Shown one piece after another: positions 4,614 through 16,722 of a stretch of DNA of 25,295 nucleotides. Positions within the stretch are counted from its first letter, which is position 1. Each line of letters starts with the position of its first letter. Location of the stretch: positions 1 through 25,295 of the IMG/VR virus record IMGVR_UViG_3300023179_000473. One strand, 5' to 3'. The notes beneath the pieces were generated by a model that was not told the origin of the DNA, did not search any database, and was given only the letters and a program-made list of their open reading frames with translations. A program made the position numbers and the translations under genes. The stretch comes from a virus.

Positions 4614-5638
4614 TGGAAGTATTGGATCAACACATCGGCGAGCGGTTCGCAGCCTATAATGCGGACACCGTGGAATTTACGGCCGAGATGCCGGACAGCT
4701 CGATCGACATTAGCGTCTACAGCCCGCCGTTTTCGTCGCTCTACATCTACTCTGAGAGCGAGCGGGATATGGGCAATGTCAGCTCGGATGAGGAATTTCA
4801 GGCGTTCTATAAAGTGCTCCTGAAGGACCTTCACCGCGTCACCAAGCCTGGGCGACTGTCCTGCGTTCACGTCAAGGATTTGGTTTATTATTCCAACGCC
4901 AGCGAGGACGGATCGCGCGGGCTGCGGGACTTCACCGGCGCCTGCATTCAGTCGCACATCGAGGCCGGCTGGGCCTTTCATAGTCGGGTGACGATCTGGC
5001 GCTGCCCAGTCAAGGAAATGACAAAGAGCAAGCCGGACGGGCTGCTTTACAAGAACTTCAGGACAGACAGCGGGCGTAATCGCGTAGGACTGCCTGAATA
5101 TATCCTAGTGTTCCGCAAGTGGGCGGAAGGCATGGATGAAAACCCGATCAATCACGTTCCTGGGCTCTGGCCTGAATGGGCGGGTGCTGGGGCGGCGTTT
5201 GTGAATCGGCGCGTTCCGAACCATGACGGATTGTGTGATCCGCTCAAGCTGACGGATGCCAAGATGCGCTCTGATCCGCGCTATGCCGAGGCGCTGGACA
5301 TCTGGCAACAATGGGCCTCGCCGGTCTGGATGGATACGCGCCAGACCGACGTTCTCAATGCCCAGATTGCGCGTGATGATGAGGCAGAGCGCCACCTTTG
5401 CCCAATGCCATTGGACCTGACGGACCGATGCCTGCGTCTGTGGTCAAACGCAAACGATGTTTGCTTTAGCCCTTTTATGGGCGTGGGCTCTGAAGGCTTT
5501 GCAGCGATGCGGGCCGGACGCCGTTTCATCGGCACCGAACTGAAGCCCGCGTATTACCGCCAAGCCGTTAAAAACCTGCTGGAAATGGAAGCGCAGTCTT
5601 CCGGTCCGTCGCTGCTGTCGTTGGCGGGCGCGGCATGA
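4613..5638 (+). CDS. DNA methyltransferase, beta-class N4/N6 type
   Basis: 341 residues. The catalytic motif IV, SPPF, is at residues 37-40, in the N-terminal half. The AdoMet-binding motif I, FMGVGSEGFAAMRAGRRFIG, is near residue 288 at the C-terminus, followed by E-L-K-P-x-Y. The order IV then I defines the beta class of amino-methyltransferases. SPPF rather than DPPY is more common in N4-cytosine enzymes, so m4C is possible but not certain. The central region (about 100-260) would hold the target recognition domain. The ATG at 4613 was chosen because it overlaps the helicase stop; an upstream start would read through the helicase gene. Likely role: self-modification of phage DNA against host restriction. 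Confidence 0.88.
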   Translation: MEVLDQHIGERFAAYNADTVEFTAEMPDSSIDISVYSPPFSSLYIYSESERDMGNVSSDEEFQAFYKVLLKDLHRVTKPGRLSCVHVKDLVYYSNASEDGSRGLRDFTGACIQSHIEAGWAFHSRVTIWRCPVKEMTKSKPDGLLYKNFRTDSGRNRVGLPEYILVFRKWAEGMDENPINHVPGLWPEWAGAGAAFVNRRVPNHDGLCDPLKLTDAKMRSDPRYAEALDIWQQWASPVWMDTRQTDVLNAQIARDDEAERHLCPMPLDLTDRCLRLWSNANDVCFSPFMGVGSEGFAAMRAGRRFIGTELKPAYYRQAVKNLLEMEAQSSGPSLLSLAGAA

Positions 5639-5994
5639 GGGAAAAGGTCGAACCAACCCCTCGCAAGGCCTTCACGCAAAAACAGCGGGCCGAGGCTTTT
5701 TTGAAAGCCGGGGGCCGCTGCGAGCGCTGCCAGACCAAGCTGACCGGAACCTGGGAGTTAGACCATATTATCACCCTTTGGATGGGTGGCGCCCATGACC
5801 CTAGCAACTGGCAATGCCTTTGCGTGGCTTGTCACCGCTGCAACAAAACCCCTGCGGATGCCACTGCAAGGGCCAAGGTCAAGCGCCAGCAGCGCAAGGC
5901 CGATCCGGTAACCCGCAAGCCCTCTCGGATGCAGTCCAGAGGCTTTGACAAAACCAAAACACGCAAATTCAACGGGAAGGTTGAACCACGATGA
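5635..5994 (+). CDS. HNH endonuclease (small, treble-clef type)
   Basis: 119 residues. The HNH fold is seen as a first zinc knuckle CERC (about 27-30), the motif ELDHI at 43-47, a central Asn in DPSNWQCL, and a second knuckle CVACHRC about residues 64-70. The C-terminal about 40 residues are Lys/Arg rich and probably bind DNA. Free HNH proteins in phages serve in packaging, as nickases or as homing enzymes; which applies here is not visible. ATGA overlaps join it to the methyltransferase upstream and the HTH gene downstream. Confidence 0.85.
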   Translation: MREKVEPTPRKAFTQKQRAEAFLKAGGRCERCQTKLTGTWELDHIITLWMGGAHDPSNWQCLCVACHRCNKTPADATARAKVKRQQRKADPVTRKPSRMQSRGFDKTKTRKFNGKVEPR

Positions 5995-6984: not shown

Positions 6985-7527
6985 ATGAACACTGAGATAA
7001 TAGACGAACCGCGTGACGGTTTCAAGTGGCGCCATGAGCGCAAGCCGATTGCGCCTAAAGTGCGCTTCGCAGTTTTCCAGCGCGACGGTTTCACCTGTCA
7101 ATATTGCGGAGCTGTCGCGCCGGACGTGGTGCTTCATTGCGACCATATTGAGCCGGTTTCAAAAGGCGGCGGAAACCAGAAAGAAAACCTCGTCACTGCT
7201 TGCGTAGATTGCAACATCGGCAAGGGCGCAAAGCGGCTTCTGAGTGAAAGTGAGCGAGAAATTCGCGCCTTGGTAAACAGGGGTTATAGGCGCGTTACGG
7301 AGCCACTTCTGAGAAAGCTAAAGCCGATTGCGGCCATACTGATTGGGCGGTTTGGAGACGATCCGAATGGCGATTACATGGATGAATTGTTGAGCCTGCA
7401 CAAATACGGCGTTGACTGTTTGACGATGACCTATTGCGCCCGAATTACGCCAAGCCCTCGCGATTTTTGGGACGACGCCCTCGATTGCGACGATATTGCG
7501 GGGGAGTTGTTCAATGGCGCGCATTAG
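6985..7527 (+). CDS. HNH endonuclease with an extra C-terminal domain
   Basis: 180 residues. An HNH module occupies about residues 20-85: FAVFQRDGFTCQYCG (first knuckle CQYC), HCDHIEPVSKGGGN (catalytic DHI), NLVTACVDCNIGKG (Asn and second knuckle CVDC). The remaining about 90 residues (from LSESEREIRALVNRG to the end) are helical and unrecognised. This McrA-like arrangement is common in phage HNH proteins. It is preceded by a hairpin-containing gap rather than an overlap, so it may be a separate transcription or insertion unit. Its 3' end overlaps the next gene by 14 bases. Confidence 0.85.
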   Translation: MNTEIIDEPRDGFKWRHERKPIAPKVRFAVFQRDGFTCQYCGAVAPDVVLHCDHIEPVSKGGGNQKENLVTACVDCNIGKGAKRLLSESEREIRALVNRGYRRVTEPLLRKLKPIAAILIGRFGDDPNGDYMDELLSLHKYGVDCLTMTYCARITPSPRDFWDDALDCDDIAGELFNGAH

Positions 7528-12022: not shown

Positions 12023-12442
12023 TTGCCAGTTCTCGAAAACCGCAAGCAAGAGCTATACGCTCAAGGCCTCGCTAGGGGGGAACCCCAGATGAAGGCCTAC
12101 GAAAACGCGGGATACAAACCGCTGGAAAGTGCGGCGTCGAGGCTGGCAAGTCAGGTTAAGGTGCTCGCGCGCGTTCGCGAATTGCAGGCAGCTTCGGCAG
12201 AGCGGGCCGAAGTGACGGCGGCGGAATTGTCTGACCAGCTCGAAGACATCCGCAAAAAGGCCCTCGAAGCGAACCAGATGGGCGCCGCCGCTCAAGCCGT
12301 CATGGGCCGGGCCAAACTGCACGGCCTGATCATCGACAAGGCCGAGGTCAAGGACGTTACCCCGATTGATCCCGCTGCACGCCAAGCGGAGATTGACCGG
12401 CTTCTAGCCAAAAGGGGCGGCCATCTCCGTGCTGTCTCCTGA
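12023..12442 (+). CDS. terS: Terminase small subunit
   Basis: 139 residues starting with a TTG codon (MPVLENRKQELYAQGLARGE). The N-terminal HTH pattern, KQELYAQGLARGEPQMKAYENAGYKPLESAASRLAS, is the family signature of small terminases that recognise the packaging site. A coiled-coil-like stretch (about 50-95) would drive ring assembly. There is no in-frame ATG until codon 23, which would delete the HTH, and GAGG sits 6 bases before the TTG, so the TTG start is preferred. It overlaps the large subunit start by 14 bases, the usual TerS-TerL order. Confidence 0.88.
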   Translation: MPVLENRKQELYAQGLARGEPQMKAYENAGYKPLESAASRLASQVKVLARVRELQAASAERAEVTAAELSDQLEDIRKKALEANQMGAAAQAVMGRAKLHGLIIDKAEVKDVTPIDPAARQAEIDRLLAKRGGHLRAVS

Positions 12443-13979
12443 GGAAGAGGAGCGCCTTTATCGGCTGCTGGTTGATGAGGACACCTATCAGGCCGGGCGC
12501 AAGCTCTGGACTTATTACCCGGACGAGGGGCCGCTTAGGCGGGAGCTATACGCTAAGCACATCGAGTTTTTCGCGGCGGGTGTGAAATACAACGAGCGGG
12601 CGGCTCTGGCCGCGAACAGAGTCGGAAAATGCATCACGATTGACAGTCGCATTGAAACGCCTGATGGCGAGTTGACTGTCTCGGAATTGATGGATCGCGG
12701 GCCTGGATTGGTTTGGGCGTGGGATGGCAACAAGCGCGTTGCGGCGATGGCAACCCGGCCATTTAGAAAGGCCGGGCTGCATGAATGCTACCGCCTTACG
12801 TTTGCTGACGGTCGATCCCTAGAATGCGCAGATCATCATCGGATTTTATGTGTCGATGGATGGCGGCGGCTTTCCGAACTCCTAAAGCAATTCGCTCCTG
12901 ACCTTCCGGCGTCCAGTTTGGACACCTGCCAGTCAATTCCGCCCGAAGGTGATCGGCATTGCTCTGGAATAGCTCCAGATTGTCAGGGTGATTGTTCTGG
13001 GGATTGCCGTCGAGGTGGTGAACGACCTCTGAGCGTTCGAGATAGCGGCCTAGCTTCGCCTCCATCACAAGGCGATGCTCGGCAACACGGCGCTGTTTCG
13101 TGCGGTTCGGATGGTCAGGGGAATAGATATACCAATAGCCCCCAAGAAGGAGGCGCCCTCCTTTCCAGTCAGGATGGCCCGCTCCTGCCCGTGGGCCGGT
13201 TCTCTGGGTCTTCCATCCCTGTTGTATCGCCCATCGACCGACGACGCCTCGGCCAATCCCTAGAAGCGCCTCAACGCTTCGCTGGGTCATCTGTTCTTCT
13301 TCCACAAGGCGGCGAGCCTCGGCAACAATCTCGGGGCTGGTCTTTGCAGGCATTTGAGGCGGTCCTATCGGTTGCGGGAAACCGCATTATATCATGCGTT
13401 CCGGTTGGCGCGAAACCAGTTTATGACCTGACGGTTGACGGGCTGCACAACTACATTGCCGGCGGCATTGTGCATCACAACACCGAGGGCTTGGGGGCTT
13501 TCGAGGTCACGCTACACCTGACGGGTCTATATCCCGATTGGTGGCTTGGCCGGCGATGGGATCGGCCCATCAACTGCCTAGCGGGTGGCGACACGGCGAC
13601 GACGACGCGGGATATTCTTGTCGCCAAGCTACTAGGGCCACGGGAGGCCAGGGGGACCGGCATGATCCCGCGCGAGGTTCTGGGCAAGCCGGTTCCGGCG
13701 CCGGGTATCCGAGACCATGTGGATTTTGTAAAGGTCAAGCATACGTCGGGCGGTTTCTCTACCCTGCAATTCCGTTCCTACGACCAAGGGCGCGAGGCGT
13801 GGCAGGGAACGGAACGCGACATCGTTTGGATGGATGAGGAGCCTCCGGAAGCCGTTTACACCGAGGGCCTTTTGCGGACGATGACCACGCGCGGCATGGT
13901 GATCTGCACGTTTACGCCGTTGAATGGCCTGACTGACGTGGCGCTTTCGTTCATGCCGGAACTGGCCGGGGCCGCATGA
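12429..13979 (+). CDS. terL: Terminase large subunit, packaging ATPase part, interrupted by an intein
   Basis: 516 codons from a GTG start. Residues 1-67 and 352-516 form the N-terminal ATPase of TerL; residues 68-351 are an intein. Spliced, the P-loop reads AANRVGK+TEG, and Walker B appears as IVWMDEEP in the C-extein, followed by the coupling motif TFTPLNG. The spliced product would be 232 residues. The frame then ends at ELAGAA, exactly where the nuclease domain should begin; that domain is in the next frame (13976-14704) with an ATGA overlap. The ATPase drives DNA translocation into the prohead through the portal. Without intein removal the P-loop Lys and Thr are separated and the motor should be dead. 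Two-polypeptide TerL versus frameshift cannot be decided by eye. Confidence 0.9.
   Translation: MLSPEEEERLYRLLVDEDTYQAGRKLWTYYPDEGPLRRELYAKHIEFFAAGVKYNERAALAANRVGKCITIDSRIETPDGELTVSELMDRGPGLVWAWDGNKRVAAMATRPFRKAGLHECYRLTFADGRSLECADHHRILCVDGWRRLSELLKQFAPDLPASSLDTCQSIPPEGDRHCSGIAPDCQGDCSGDCRRGGERPLSVRDSGLASPPSQGDARQHGAVSCGSDGQGNRYTNSPQEGGALLSSQDGPLLPVGRFSGSSIPVVSPIDRRRLGQSLEAPQRFAGSSVLLPQGGEPRQQSRGWSLQAFEAVLSVAGNRIISCVPVGAKPVYDLTVDGLHNYIAGGIVHHNTEGLGAFEVTLHLTGLYPDWWLGRRWDRPINCLAGGDTATTTRDILVAKLLGPREARGTGMIPREVLGKPVPAPGIRDHVDFVKVKHTSGGFSTLQFRSYDQGREAWQGTERDIVWMDEEPPEAVYTEGLLRTMTTRGMVICTFTPLNGLTDVALSFMPELAGAA
12796..13353 (-). CDS. HNH homing endonuclease encoded antisense inside the intein
   Basis: 185 residues on the strand opposite to terL. 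Residues 5-45 form an HTH-like segment (SPEIVAEARRLVEEEQMTQRS, then VEALLGIGRGVVGRWAI). Residues 73-135 are an HNH_3-type nuclease: GYWYIYSPDHPN, AEHRLVMEAKLGRYLE, EVVHHLDGNPQNNHPDNLEL, DH. The catalytic set is present (H93, H112-H113, N116, N121, N125, H135). A conserved-looking tail CPNWTPEGQERI follows. It lies between intein blocks B and F, where a homing domain is normally fused in sense; its last about 25 codons are antisense to block B. AGGA is 9 bases before the ATG and TGATATAAT lies further upstream. Expected role: cutting intein-less terL to spread the element. Confidence 0.88.
   Translation of the reverse strand: MPAKTSPEIVAEARRLVEEEQMTQRSVEALLGIGRGVVGRWAIQQGWKTQRTGPRAGAGHPDWKGGRLLLGGYWYIYSPDHPNRTKQRRVAEHRLVMEAKLGRYLERSEVVHHLDGNPQNNHPDNLELFQSNADHLRAELTGRCPNWTPEGQERIALGVRKAAAIHRHIKSDDDLRILGIDRQQT
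13386..13394 (-). promoter_or_regulatory. Extended -10 promoter element for the antisense HNH gene
   Basis: On the minus strand this reads TGATATAAT, a perfect match to the extended -10 consensus TGnTATAAT, 33 bases before the HNH ATG. Only a weak -35 (TTTCGC) lies 18 bases upstream, but extended -10 promoters tolerate that. The same bases on the plus strand encode Ile-Ile-Ser of intein block F, using an ATA codon unusual for this GC-rich genome. Confidence 0.55.
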
Positions 13980-14704
13980 AGTGGGCCATCGGCATAACCT
14001 GGTCGGACGTTCCACACCTATCCGCAGAGGATAAGGCCAGCCTCTGGGAAAGCATCCCGCCTCACCAAAGGGACGCGCGGGCCAAGGGCATTCCGGCGCT
14101 AGGCTCTGGCGTCATCTACCCGGTGAGTGAGGATGTTTACCTAGTCGATCCGTTCGACCTTCCACCGCATTGGCCTCGGGCCTATGGCATGGACGTGGGT
14201 TGGAAGCGCACCGCTGCGCTTTGGGGGGCTTGGGATCAAAGCCAGGACATCATCTATCTTTATTCCGAACACTACATGAGCGAGGCCCCTCCGCAGGTTC
14301 ACGCGGACGCGATCCGGGGCCGGGGCTCATGGGTTCCGGGCGCGATTGACCCGGCGTCTTCAGGGTCTAGCCAATTCGACGGCAAGAAGCTGATCAACGA
14401 GTATCGCTCGCTAGAGCTGGACCTTGCCTTGGCTGACAACGCAGTCGAGGCGGGGCTTCACGCGGTTTACCGGCGCTTGGTCTCTGGCCGGCTCAAGGTG
14501 TTTAGGACGCTGAATAGCTTCCTTTCGGAGATCAGGCTTTATCGGCGCGATGAGGCCGGAAAGATTGTCAAGGAGCGGGACCACCTGATGGACTGCCTCC
14601 GCTATCTTGTGATGTCTGGCATGGCTCGGGCCACGACTGAGGCCCATGCCAACTACGACGACCACCAGGCCCCGGAAGGCCGCGACAGAGTGACGGGGTA
14701 TTGA
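13976..14704 (+). CDS. Terminase large subunit, nuclease part (separate reading frame)
   Basis: 242 residues starting MKWAIGITWSDVPHLSAEDK. This is the RNase H-fold nuclease of TerL: RDARAKGIPALGSGVIYPV links from the ATPase, then GMDVGWKRTAALWGAWD near 74-90 carries the first catalytic Asp, PGAIDPASSGSSQFDG near 122 another acidic residue, and ERDHLMDCLRYLVM near 206-219 the last Asp. It cuts the concatemer at the start and end of packaging. In related terminases this domain is fused to the ATPase. Here its ATG overlaps the ATPase stop (ATGA), shifting frame by -1. The sequence is intact, so it is probably functional as a coupled second subunit. Confidence 0.88.
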   Translation: MKWAIGITWSDVPHLSAEDKASLWESIPPHQRDARAKGIPALGSGVIYPVSEDVYLVDPFDLPPHWPRAYGMDVGWKRTAALWGAWDQSQDIIYLYSEHYMSEAPPQVHADAIRGRGSWVPGAIDPASSGSSQFDGKKLINEYRSLELDLALADNAVEAGLHAVYRRLVSGRLKVFRTLNSFLSEIRLYRRDEAGKIVKERDHLMDCLRYLVMSGMARATTEAHANYDDHQAPEGRDRVTGY

Positions 14705-16722
14705 TGGAAGACGACGAAACCGGCGAGATGCCAGAGATGGAAGCCGCGATGGAAGATGACGGCATGGTCGAGAACGACCAGGGCCAGCGCTTCACGTCGC
14801 GCCTGCTGGAATTTGCGGACGCAGAAGGGGACATTTCCGGCCTGCTGGACGCAAACGAACTGACCGAATTGGGCTATCGCGTTGTGCAGGACTGGGAGCG
14901 CGACAACGCCGACCGGGCCGATTGGCTAGCCTCGACCGAAAAGGCGCTGGCTGTTGCCGCTCAGGACCCGCTGCCGGAAAAAACATACCCTTTCGACAAC
15001 GCTTCTAACGTCAACTATCCCATCCTCGTCGTGGCGGCTCAACAATTCGCGGCGCGGGCATATCCGGCCATCGTCAAGGGCGATACGGCTCTACGGGTCA
15101 AGGTCATTGGGGACGATCCTGAAGGCCTGAAAGCGGATCGCGCCGCTAGGGTGCGGGACTATCTGAACTATCGCCTGTTCTATGGCATGGTCGGATGGGA
15201 AACCGACGTTGACACGATGTTGAACCAGATGCCGGTGACGGGCATGGGGTTCAAGAAAGTCTATTACGACCCAATTGACGGGGTGCGGTCGGACTATGTG
15301 GCGCCGCAGCGGCTGACTGTTCCCAAAGGCACGGTGAGCCTTGAGCGCTGCCCTCGGGTGACGCAGGACTTTGACCTGTATCCGTATGAAATTGCAGCCC
15401 GGATGCGGGCGGGCGTCTATCGGACGCTGGAACTTGATAGGACCGACGAGGACGAACAAAAGTCGCGTCTGATCCTTGAACAGCATCGTATGGACGATCT
15501 GGACGAGGACGGGACCGAGGAGCCCTATATCGTCACGGTCGATAAGGAAACCAACCAGGTCCTGAGGATCGAGGCGGCTTTCACGCGGGCCGATGTGGGC
15601 TTTGTCGAGGGGGAAGTGGTCGCGGTTCAACGGTGGATGCCGTTTGTTGACTTCCCGTTTCTGCCTGATCCGAAAGGCGGCTTCTACGCGCTAGGCTTTG
15701 GCAAGCTGGTGGAAAGCCTCGGCTCGGTCATCAACACGTCCATCAACCAGCTACTCGACGCGGGTCATGCCCAGGTCGCCGGGGGCGGGTTTGTCACGGC
15801 GGGCCTTCGCATTCAGGGCGCCGGGCAATCGTCAACGATCCGTTTTAAACCTGGGGAATACAAGACGGTTAACGTGCCGTCTGGCGTGGCGAAGGACGCC
15901 ATCTGGGACAGGCCCGTCCCCTCGCCAAGCCCTGTGCTGTTTAGCCTGCTGGACATGATCCTGGGGGCCGCAAAAGACATCTCGTCAATCAAGGATGTGC
16001 TGACGGGGGATGCCCCCGCTACGGCGCCGGTCGGGACCACGCTAGCCCTGATTGAGCAAGGGCTTCAGTCGTTTACCGCCATCTACAAGCGCATCTATCG
16101 GTCAATGCGTATCGAGTTCCGCAAGGTCTATGAGTGCGAAAAGCGGTGGGGTTCGCCCGAGGACTATCTGCGGGTTCTGGATGATCCCAAGGCCAATTGG
16201 GAAAAGGATTTTGAGGGCGACGGTCAGGACATCATGCCGGTGTCTGACCCGTCAGTGGTCACTCGCTCGCAAGCCTTGGCTAAAGCGGCGTTCCTTCAAC
16301 AATTCATGGCCGCGCCTTTCGCCAACGGTCCGGAGATTTTCCGCTTTGCTCTTGAGGCTGCGGAGATTGACGACGTTGACAAGTTCCTCGCCGCGCCTCC
16401 GCAGGGGCCGCCACCAGGCGCTGCCGAGGCTGTCGAAAAGGACAAGGCGCAAGCCGAAAAGGACCACACGCAAGCGGTCCTGAACATGGCGAAAGCCGGT
16501 CAGATCACAGGAGAAACGCTTGACCCTAGAGGACTGGGAGGGATGGCGGGCGCACCCGATGACGCAATGGGTAATGCGGGCGCTGGAATCGGCGGCGGAA
16601 ACCCAGAAATTGGCATGGGTCCAGGGGACATGGGACCAGGGCCAGAGCCCGGACCCCTTGATCTTGACGGAATTGAAGGTCAGGGCGGACAGCTTTCTGG
16701 CCTTGAGCCAGAGCAGCTTTGA
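14704..16722 (+). CDS. P22-like portal protein
   Basis: 672 residues. Segments typical of the P22-type portal family: KTYPFDNASNVNYPILVVAAQQFAARAYP-like stretch near 95-125 (KTYPFDNASNVNYPIL seen), GMVGWETDVDTMLNQMPVTG, RFKPGEYKTVNVPSG, a long helix AIYKRIYRSMRIEFRKVYEC near 460. Length is close to the P22 portal (725). The portal ring sits at one head vertex, docks the terminase and later the neck proteins. The C-terminal about 65 residues are Gly/Pro/Met-rich and low in complexity, and are overlapped by another gene in a different frame. Start taken as the ATG forming TGATG with the nuclease stop; a TTG lies one codon earlier. Confidence 0.9.
   Translation: MEDDETGEMPEMEAAMEDDGMVENDQGQRFTSRLLEFADAEGDISGLLDANELTELGYRVVQDWERDNADRADWLASTEKALAVAAQDPLPEKTYPFDNASNVNYPILVVAAQQFAARAYPAIVKGDTALRVKVIGDDPEGLKADRAARVRDYLNYRLFYGMVGWETDVDTMLNQMPVTGMGFKKVYYDPIDGVRSDYVAPQRLTVPKGTVSLERCPRVTQDFDLYPYEIAARMRAGVYRTLELDRTDEDEQKSRLILEQHRMDDLDEDGTEEPYIVTVDKETNQVLRIEAAFTRADVGFVEGEVVAVQRWMPFVDFPFLPDPKGGFYALGFGKLVESLGSVINTSINQLLDAGHAQVAGGGFVTAGLRIQGAGQSSTIRFKPGEYKTVNVPSGVAKDAIWDRPVPSPSPVLFSLLDMILGAAKDISSIKDVLTGDAPATAPVGTTLALIEQGLQSFTAIYKRIYRSMRIEFRKVYECEKRWGSPEDYLRVLDDPKANWEKDFEGDGQDIMPVSDPSVVTRSQALAKAAFLQQFMAAPFANGPEIFRFALEAAEIDDVDKFLAAPPQGPPPGAAEAVEKDKAQAEKDHTQAVLNMAKAGQITGETLDPRGLGGMAGAPDDAMGNAGAGIGGGNPEIGMGPGDMGPGPEPGPLDLDGIEGQGGQLSGLEPEQL

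Follow-up and report, generated by a model that had tools for sequence, protein, structure and literature searches.

A putative homing endonuclease gene lies antisense to the linker of an intein in a phage terminase

The stretch of DNA analysed here, called the window throughout, is a viral record of 25,295 bases (IMGVR_UViG_3300023179_000473). In its central part, the plus strand carries an open reading frame (ORF) for the ATPase half of the phage large terminase (TerL) with an intein inside it, and the minus strand carries, opposite the intein, a gene for an HNH endonuclease. The features are the following:

12429-13979, plus strand: ORF for the ATPase half of TerL (Terminase_6N, 2e-11), containing the intein.
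12630-13481, plus strand: intein of 284 amino acids, from Cys1 to HHN, with Thr as the next residue, recognised by TIGR01443, invariant residues and AF2/Foldseek.
12798-12854, plus strand: intein block B region, TFADGRSLECADHHRILCV, opposite the tail of the HNH gene; the intein frame appears to be the selected one.
12867-12899: changeover zone (intein residues 80-90), in which relatives show slow change at each of the three codon positions.
12900-13349, plus strand: intein linker, predicted to be disordered (AF2 pLDDT about 45), antisense to the HNH core; its peptide is apparently not selected.
13399-13481, plus strand: C-terminal splicing region, ending in NYIAGGIVHHN, outside the overlap with the HNH gene.
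12796-13353, minus strand: HNH endonuclease gene of 185 amino acids, ATG at 13353-13351 and stop at 12798-12796, assigned by PF13392 (HNH_3, 4.9e-11), PHROG HNH families and family alignments.
12796-12837, minus strand: HNH tail, residues 173-185 and the stop, of low model confidence and probably mostly read-through opposite block B.
13386-13394, minus strand: promoter-like extended -10, TGATATAAT, within the C-terminal codons of the intein and 32 nt upstream of the HNH ATG.
13363-13366, minus strand: AGGA, a weak match to a Shine-Dalgarno, 9 nt upstream of the HNH ATG.

The intein interrupts TerL at its P-loop, between RVGK and T, and the TerL of EBPR podovirus 1, which aligns to both exteins, represents an intein-free relative. 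The window protein matches TIGR01443 above its cutoff (28 vs 15.6), PF14890 (Intein_splicing) below it (31.9 vs 35.8) and TIGR01445 also below its cutoff; a further match is PRK07773, an intein-containing helicase. Cys1, His70 in block B, His283 and Asn284 are invariant across 34 aligned inteins, and the residue that follows the intein is Thr or Ser at nearly all loci. A Lys at intein residue 47 (window 12768-12770), preceding block B, is likewise invariant in the 34 aligned inteins. In the AF2 model, residues 1-90 and approximately 241-284 have pLDDT values mostly above 93, with about 45 in the linker between them, and the top PDB matches of this model in Foldseek are the Ssp and Npu DnaB mini-inteins (E about 5e-7). 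Judged by residues and predicted fold, the element corresponds to a class 1 intein with an intact splicing domain, which would be expected to splice. The linker, read in the plus frame, has no match to any endonuclease, and the window element therefore lacks the in-frame endonuclease of large inteins. A group I intron was also considered and rejected, as no Rfam match was found in 12400-14100.

The TerL of the window is split, the ATPase ORF being followed by a separate nuclease ORF at 13976-14704, with an ATGA overlap between them. At L032 and L100, the intein-bearing ORF likewise ends near the ATPase/nuclease junction, and no start of an adjacent ORF was found there within 30 nt of that end. 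At L074 (452-3976), the intein-bearing ORF has 1,175 amino acids and is longer than those of its relatives, which suggests that, downstream of TerL, a fusion occurred or a stop is missing.

The entire HNH gene, and not just its tail, is antisense to the intein ORF. Intein codon position 1 lies opposite HNH position 1, intein position 2 opposite HNH position 3, and intein position 3 opposite HNH position 2; thus, the HNH wobble position is intein position 2 and the intein wobble position is HNH position 2, making the two constraints separable. The final 24 codons of the HNH gene (12799-12870) pair with those encoding TFADGRSLECADHHRILCVDGW, which is block B. It had been claimed from a reading of the sequence alone that the antisense gene runs into the splicing domain, and this is borne out by the position of its stop opposite block B; of the interval 12786-12869 given for the overlap, 12786-12795 falls outside the HNH gene, since its stop is at 12796-12798, and the remainder holds. 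The AF2 model of the HNH protein is confident up to about residue 172, where its last helix ends opposite intein residue 70; its confidence falls to a weak value of about 55 in residues 173-185, which face intein residues 57-69. Its N-terminal helices are HTH-like, with weak structural matches to HTH domains and to I-HmuI, and a Foldseek search of the model against the PDB gave no significant match. Thus, the product combines an HNH motif with a putative DNA-binding part of the kind expected in an HNH homing endonuclease. Two more HNH-like ORFs, judged by eye, are present on the plus strand of the window at 5635-5994 and 6985-7527.

Relatives were gathered by searching with the HNH protein, the presence of an intein not being required; viral contigs were scanned three times with alignments and genome contigs once. 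Queries built from HNH alignments proved productive; a scan with the window intein sequence gave no relatives. All 113 further distinct relatives with an HNH profile score of at least 125 are antisense, in the same register and inside a long ORF; in the score bin of 100-125, 13/16 HNH relatives are without the antisense arrangement, and none of those scoring below 100 has a long antisense ORF. Both the N- and C-terminal splicing profiles are matched by 112/117 distinct long antisense ORFs; of the others, most are truncated at the end of a contig, and neither profile is matched by L110 and L111. At 85% HNH identity, 57 representatives were left. It has to be noted that many loci are metagenomic contigs and that some groups, such as L065-L082, consist of close relatives; locus counts therefore overstate independence. 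Isolated carriers include the Pectobacterium phages Koroua and Sabo and the Pseudoalteromonas phage PHS3. Across loci, the insertion points lie in the P-loop, at GK|T, just before SGKT/SGKS, or at G|TGKS or G|SGKS, and the host proteins tested match terminase families, some of them weakly.

The strand that encodes HNH also carries candidate expression signals. A Shine-Dalgarno of at least 4 nt precedes 52% of HNH starts vs 8% of control ATGs, and one of at least 5 nt precedes 24% vs 1.1%. The extended -10 of the window was first noticed by reading the sequence and then tested in the representatives, 19/55 of which have a -10 score of at least 6 vs 4.9 expected when the intein codons are replaced synonymously; the positions cluster at 29 and 32 nt. 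In PHS3, a 6/6 TTGACA is found at proper spacing. A promoter/terminator tool found nothing in 12400-14750, a blank result explained by its requirement for a -35. Some groups (L065-L082, L097-L099 and L101) have no clear -10 or Shine-Dalgarno, and L041 and L048 show no convincing start or ribosome site. The -10 and Shine-Dalgarno elements are consensus matches, putative signals present in many members of the family, the window included.

Codon-position differences were counted in pairs of relatives and not in the window, whose closest HNH relatives are 40-60% identical; taking into account that the window has no close relative, selection on its genes is deduced from the family. In the linker (3,208 codons, 20 disjoint pairs), differences at intein positions 1/2/3 amount to 388/884/313, and the pattern is HNH-like, with the HNH wobble position the most variable, in 20/20 pairs. 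It is strongly supported by this comparison that, opposite the linker, selection acts on the HNH protein, the only demand on the linker peptide being that its frame stay open. Where the HNH gene overlaps the N-terminal splicing part (438 codons, 20 disjoint pairs), the counts are 81/60/117 and the pattern is intein-like in 11/11 informative pairs (sign tests); the N-terminal codons that encode the intein alone (1,192) give 201/151/557. Opposite block B, it is the intein that is selected, the HNH tail being for the most part a drifting read-through to the next stop within sequence constrained by the intein. The switch between the two patterns occurs at intein residues 80-90, just past block B, and this zone is, from the codon-position data, the best candidate for a real dual protein constraint.

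The sequence-only reading had gone further, in that block B was considered to be constrained in both frames, and relatives whose HNH gene ends before block B were named as the observation that would speak against it. Such relatives exist, since in L065-L082 the HNH stop lies at intein residue 83; outside this group, its position is scattered between intein residues 11 and 84. A drop of variation in both frames had been anticipated as well, and here the outcome is divided: in the N-terminal overlap the intein wobble position is the most variable one, contrary to the proposal, and in overlapped block B there is a weak extra slowdown in its favour, intein wobble variation being 0.275 there vs 0.446 in the non-overlapped block B of other pairs, beyond the 0.459 vs 0.521 of the neighbouring part, in a difference-in-differences check whose control pairs come mostly from one closely related group. 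This slowdown makes a slight constraint on the HNH tail possible. A functional dual coding of block B, in which the HNH C-terminus would need these codons and be fitted onto the splicing motif, is nevertheless unlikely: the slowdown and the last helix of the HNH model, reaching residue 172, speak for it, and the intein-like codon-position pattern, the scatter of the HNH stop over about 70 codons and the low model confidence of residues 173-185 speak against it.

Evidence of mobility comes from closely related pairs. Among L016, L017 and L018, wobble positions differ by about 0.3-0.5 in the flanking exteins and by about 0-0.1 over most of the intein, with the change in divergence falling near the intein boundaries, and L087 and L090 behave alike. 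Judging from these profiles, the intein-HNH unit appears to have moved recently between diverged phages in two groups, as homing predicts. Mantel r values for HNH, splicing-domain and extein distances are 0.61, 0.53 and 0.57; as all of them correlate, they are alone no proof of transfer, for which the close pairs are the basis.

Our preferred reading, with a probability of about 0.85, is that a mobile intein sits in the phage TerL of the window and that its homing endonuclease is encoded by a gene of its own, complete and placed on the DNA strand complementary to the linker. It could be supposed instead that the HNH protein is a packaging-accessory nuclease that merely happens to sit in the intein, taking into account its location in the terminase gene and that packaging in some (cos) phages involves HNH proteins encoded next to the terminase. 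However, HNH occurs only together with the intein and travels along with it, TerL relatives without the intein exist, and the gene is on the strand opposite to the packaging operon, which makes this role very improbable. Marginally less credible still is that HNH, once active, is now a decaying passenger whose antisense frame stays open only because the intein needs it. The few copies without a convincing start or ribosome site (L041 and L048) would fit such decay, whereas the HNH pattern conserved in 20/20 pairs, the absence of any broken HNH frame among relatives scoring at least 125 and the recent transfers of the intein-HNH unit argue against it.

The coexistence of the two frames was compared with chance by means of synonymous shuffles, in which codons are exchanged among identical amino acids within each gene, keeping the protein and the codon usage. 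The intein frame is stop-free in 79/79 distinct HNH genes, whereas shuffled HNH genes contain 6.3 stops per gene on average, with a mean probability of being open of 0.005; for the window gene, the shuffles have 3.9 stops on average in the intein frame and 0.7% of them are open. In 77 homologues that do not belong to the family, the equivalent frame contains 4.5 stops per 100 codons and is closed in 76 cases. Thus, HNH synonymous sites serve to hold the intein ORF open. The notion that the ORF of one strand is real and the other a meaningless long antisense ORF, for which the open shuffles of the window's own gene and the frequency of long spurious antisense ORFs in GC-rich genomes could be invoked, was rejected as practically negligible on the basis of the shuffles and the outside homologues, many of the 79 genes having 40-50% GC, HNH homology and a purifying pattern being found on one strand and a splicing domain on the other, and all 113 relatives with a score of at least 125 sharing the arrangement.

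For the mobile intein with its antisense endonuclease gene, the following sequence of events is proposed. HNH would be transcribed from its own antisense promoter and would cut intein-free TerL genes at the P-loop; repair would then copy the intein together with its HNH gene, and TerL, made as a precursor carrying a disordered antisense peptide, would be restored via protein splicing.

Several known systems share part of this organisation. Split inteins may have a free-standing endonuclease gene between their halves; as in them, the endonuclease here has a gene of its own at the intein locus, but the intein is unsplit and its ORF runs through the endonuclease gene. Inteins in the P-loop of TerL are well known, for example the mycobacteriophage TerL1-a inteins, which are large and have an in-frame homing endonuclease (PMC5050341). 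The element described here shares with them a Hint-type splicing domain, the P-loop Lys|Thr site, a linker at the endonuclease position and spread between phages; it differs in that the endonuclease is outside the intein protein: an HNH_3 gene, with a start of its own and often also a Shine-Dalgarno and a -10, lies antisense to the linker. Antisense homing endonuclease genes are known in nuclear rDNA group I introns, such as I-DsqI of Didymium (PMC9548176). There too, the endonuclease gene runs opposite to both the splicing element and the host gene and is expressed from the other strand, as it would be here; unlike in those introns, whose other strand needs no translation, the opposite strand is here one continuous frame.

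The ShiLan domain is an out-of-frame, same-strand HNH in a phage DNA methylase, without a splicing domain (PMC11855218), and ShiLan-type phages occur among the HNH homologues. In both cases an HNH gene is hidden in a host ORF, and this ORF stays open across the insertion; here, however, HNH is encoded antisense and what is inserted is an intein. A ShiLan-type hidden HNH insertion was accordingly discarded for the window, its HNH being on the opposite strand and a splicing domain being present. At L111 (3004-3471), an HNH gene lies antisense in a DNA methylase ORF (N6_N4_Mtase) with no detectable splicing blocks, and this locus has the look of a ShiLan insertion in antisense orientation. Searches of an open-access paper collection turned up no description of an intein with an antisense endonuclease.

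The arrangement leads to poor annotation. For the loci L010 and L241 (KX912252.1), this is visible in the public records: that of PHS3 calls HNH, with TerL shortened to make room for it, and those of the Pectobacterium phages contain the long ORF alone, as a hypothetical protein, and omit HNH.

It can tentatively be considered, although the odds are against it, that these elements form a distinct intein class, in which one stretch of DNA would serve as linker, as selfish endonuclease gene on the opposite strand and, in the C-terminal splicing codons, as promoter of that gene, and in which the antisense transcript would also alter terminase timing, so that the element would affect packaging as well as its own spread.

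The endonucleases of large inteins are normally in-frame domains, and here a large family has its endonuclease on the other strand. An antisense endonuclease could be expressed independently of the host protein, although the bases of its gene have to specify a translatable linker as well. In addition, the family provides more than 100 natural overlapping gene pairs for the study of dual coding, with constraints that can be measured in the HNH protein, the stop-free intein frame and the antisense -10.
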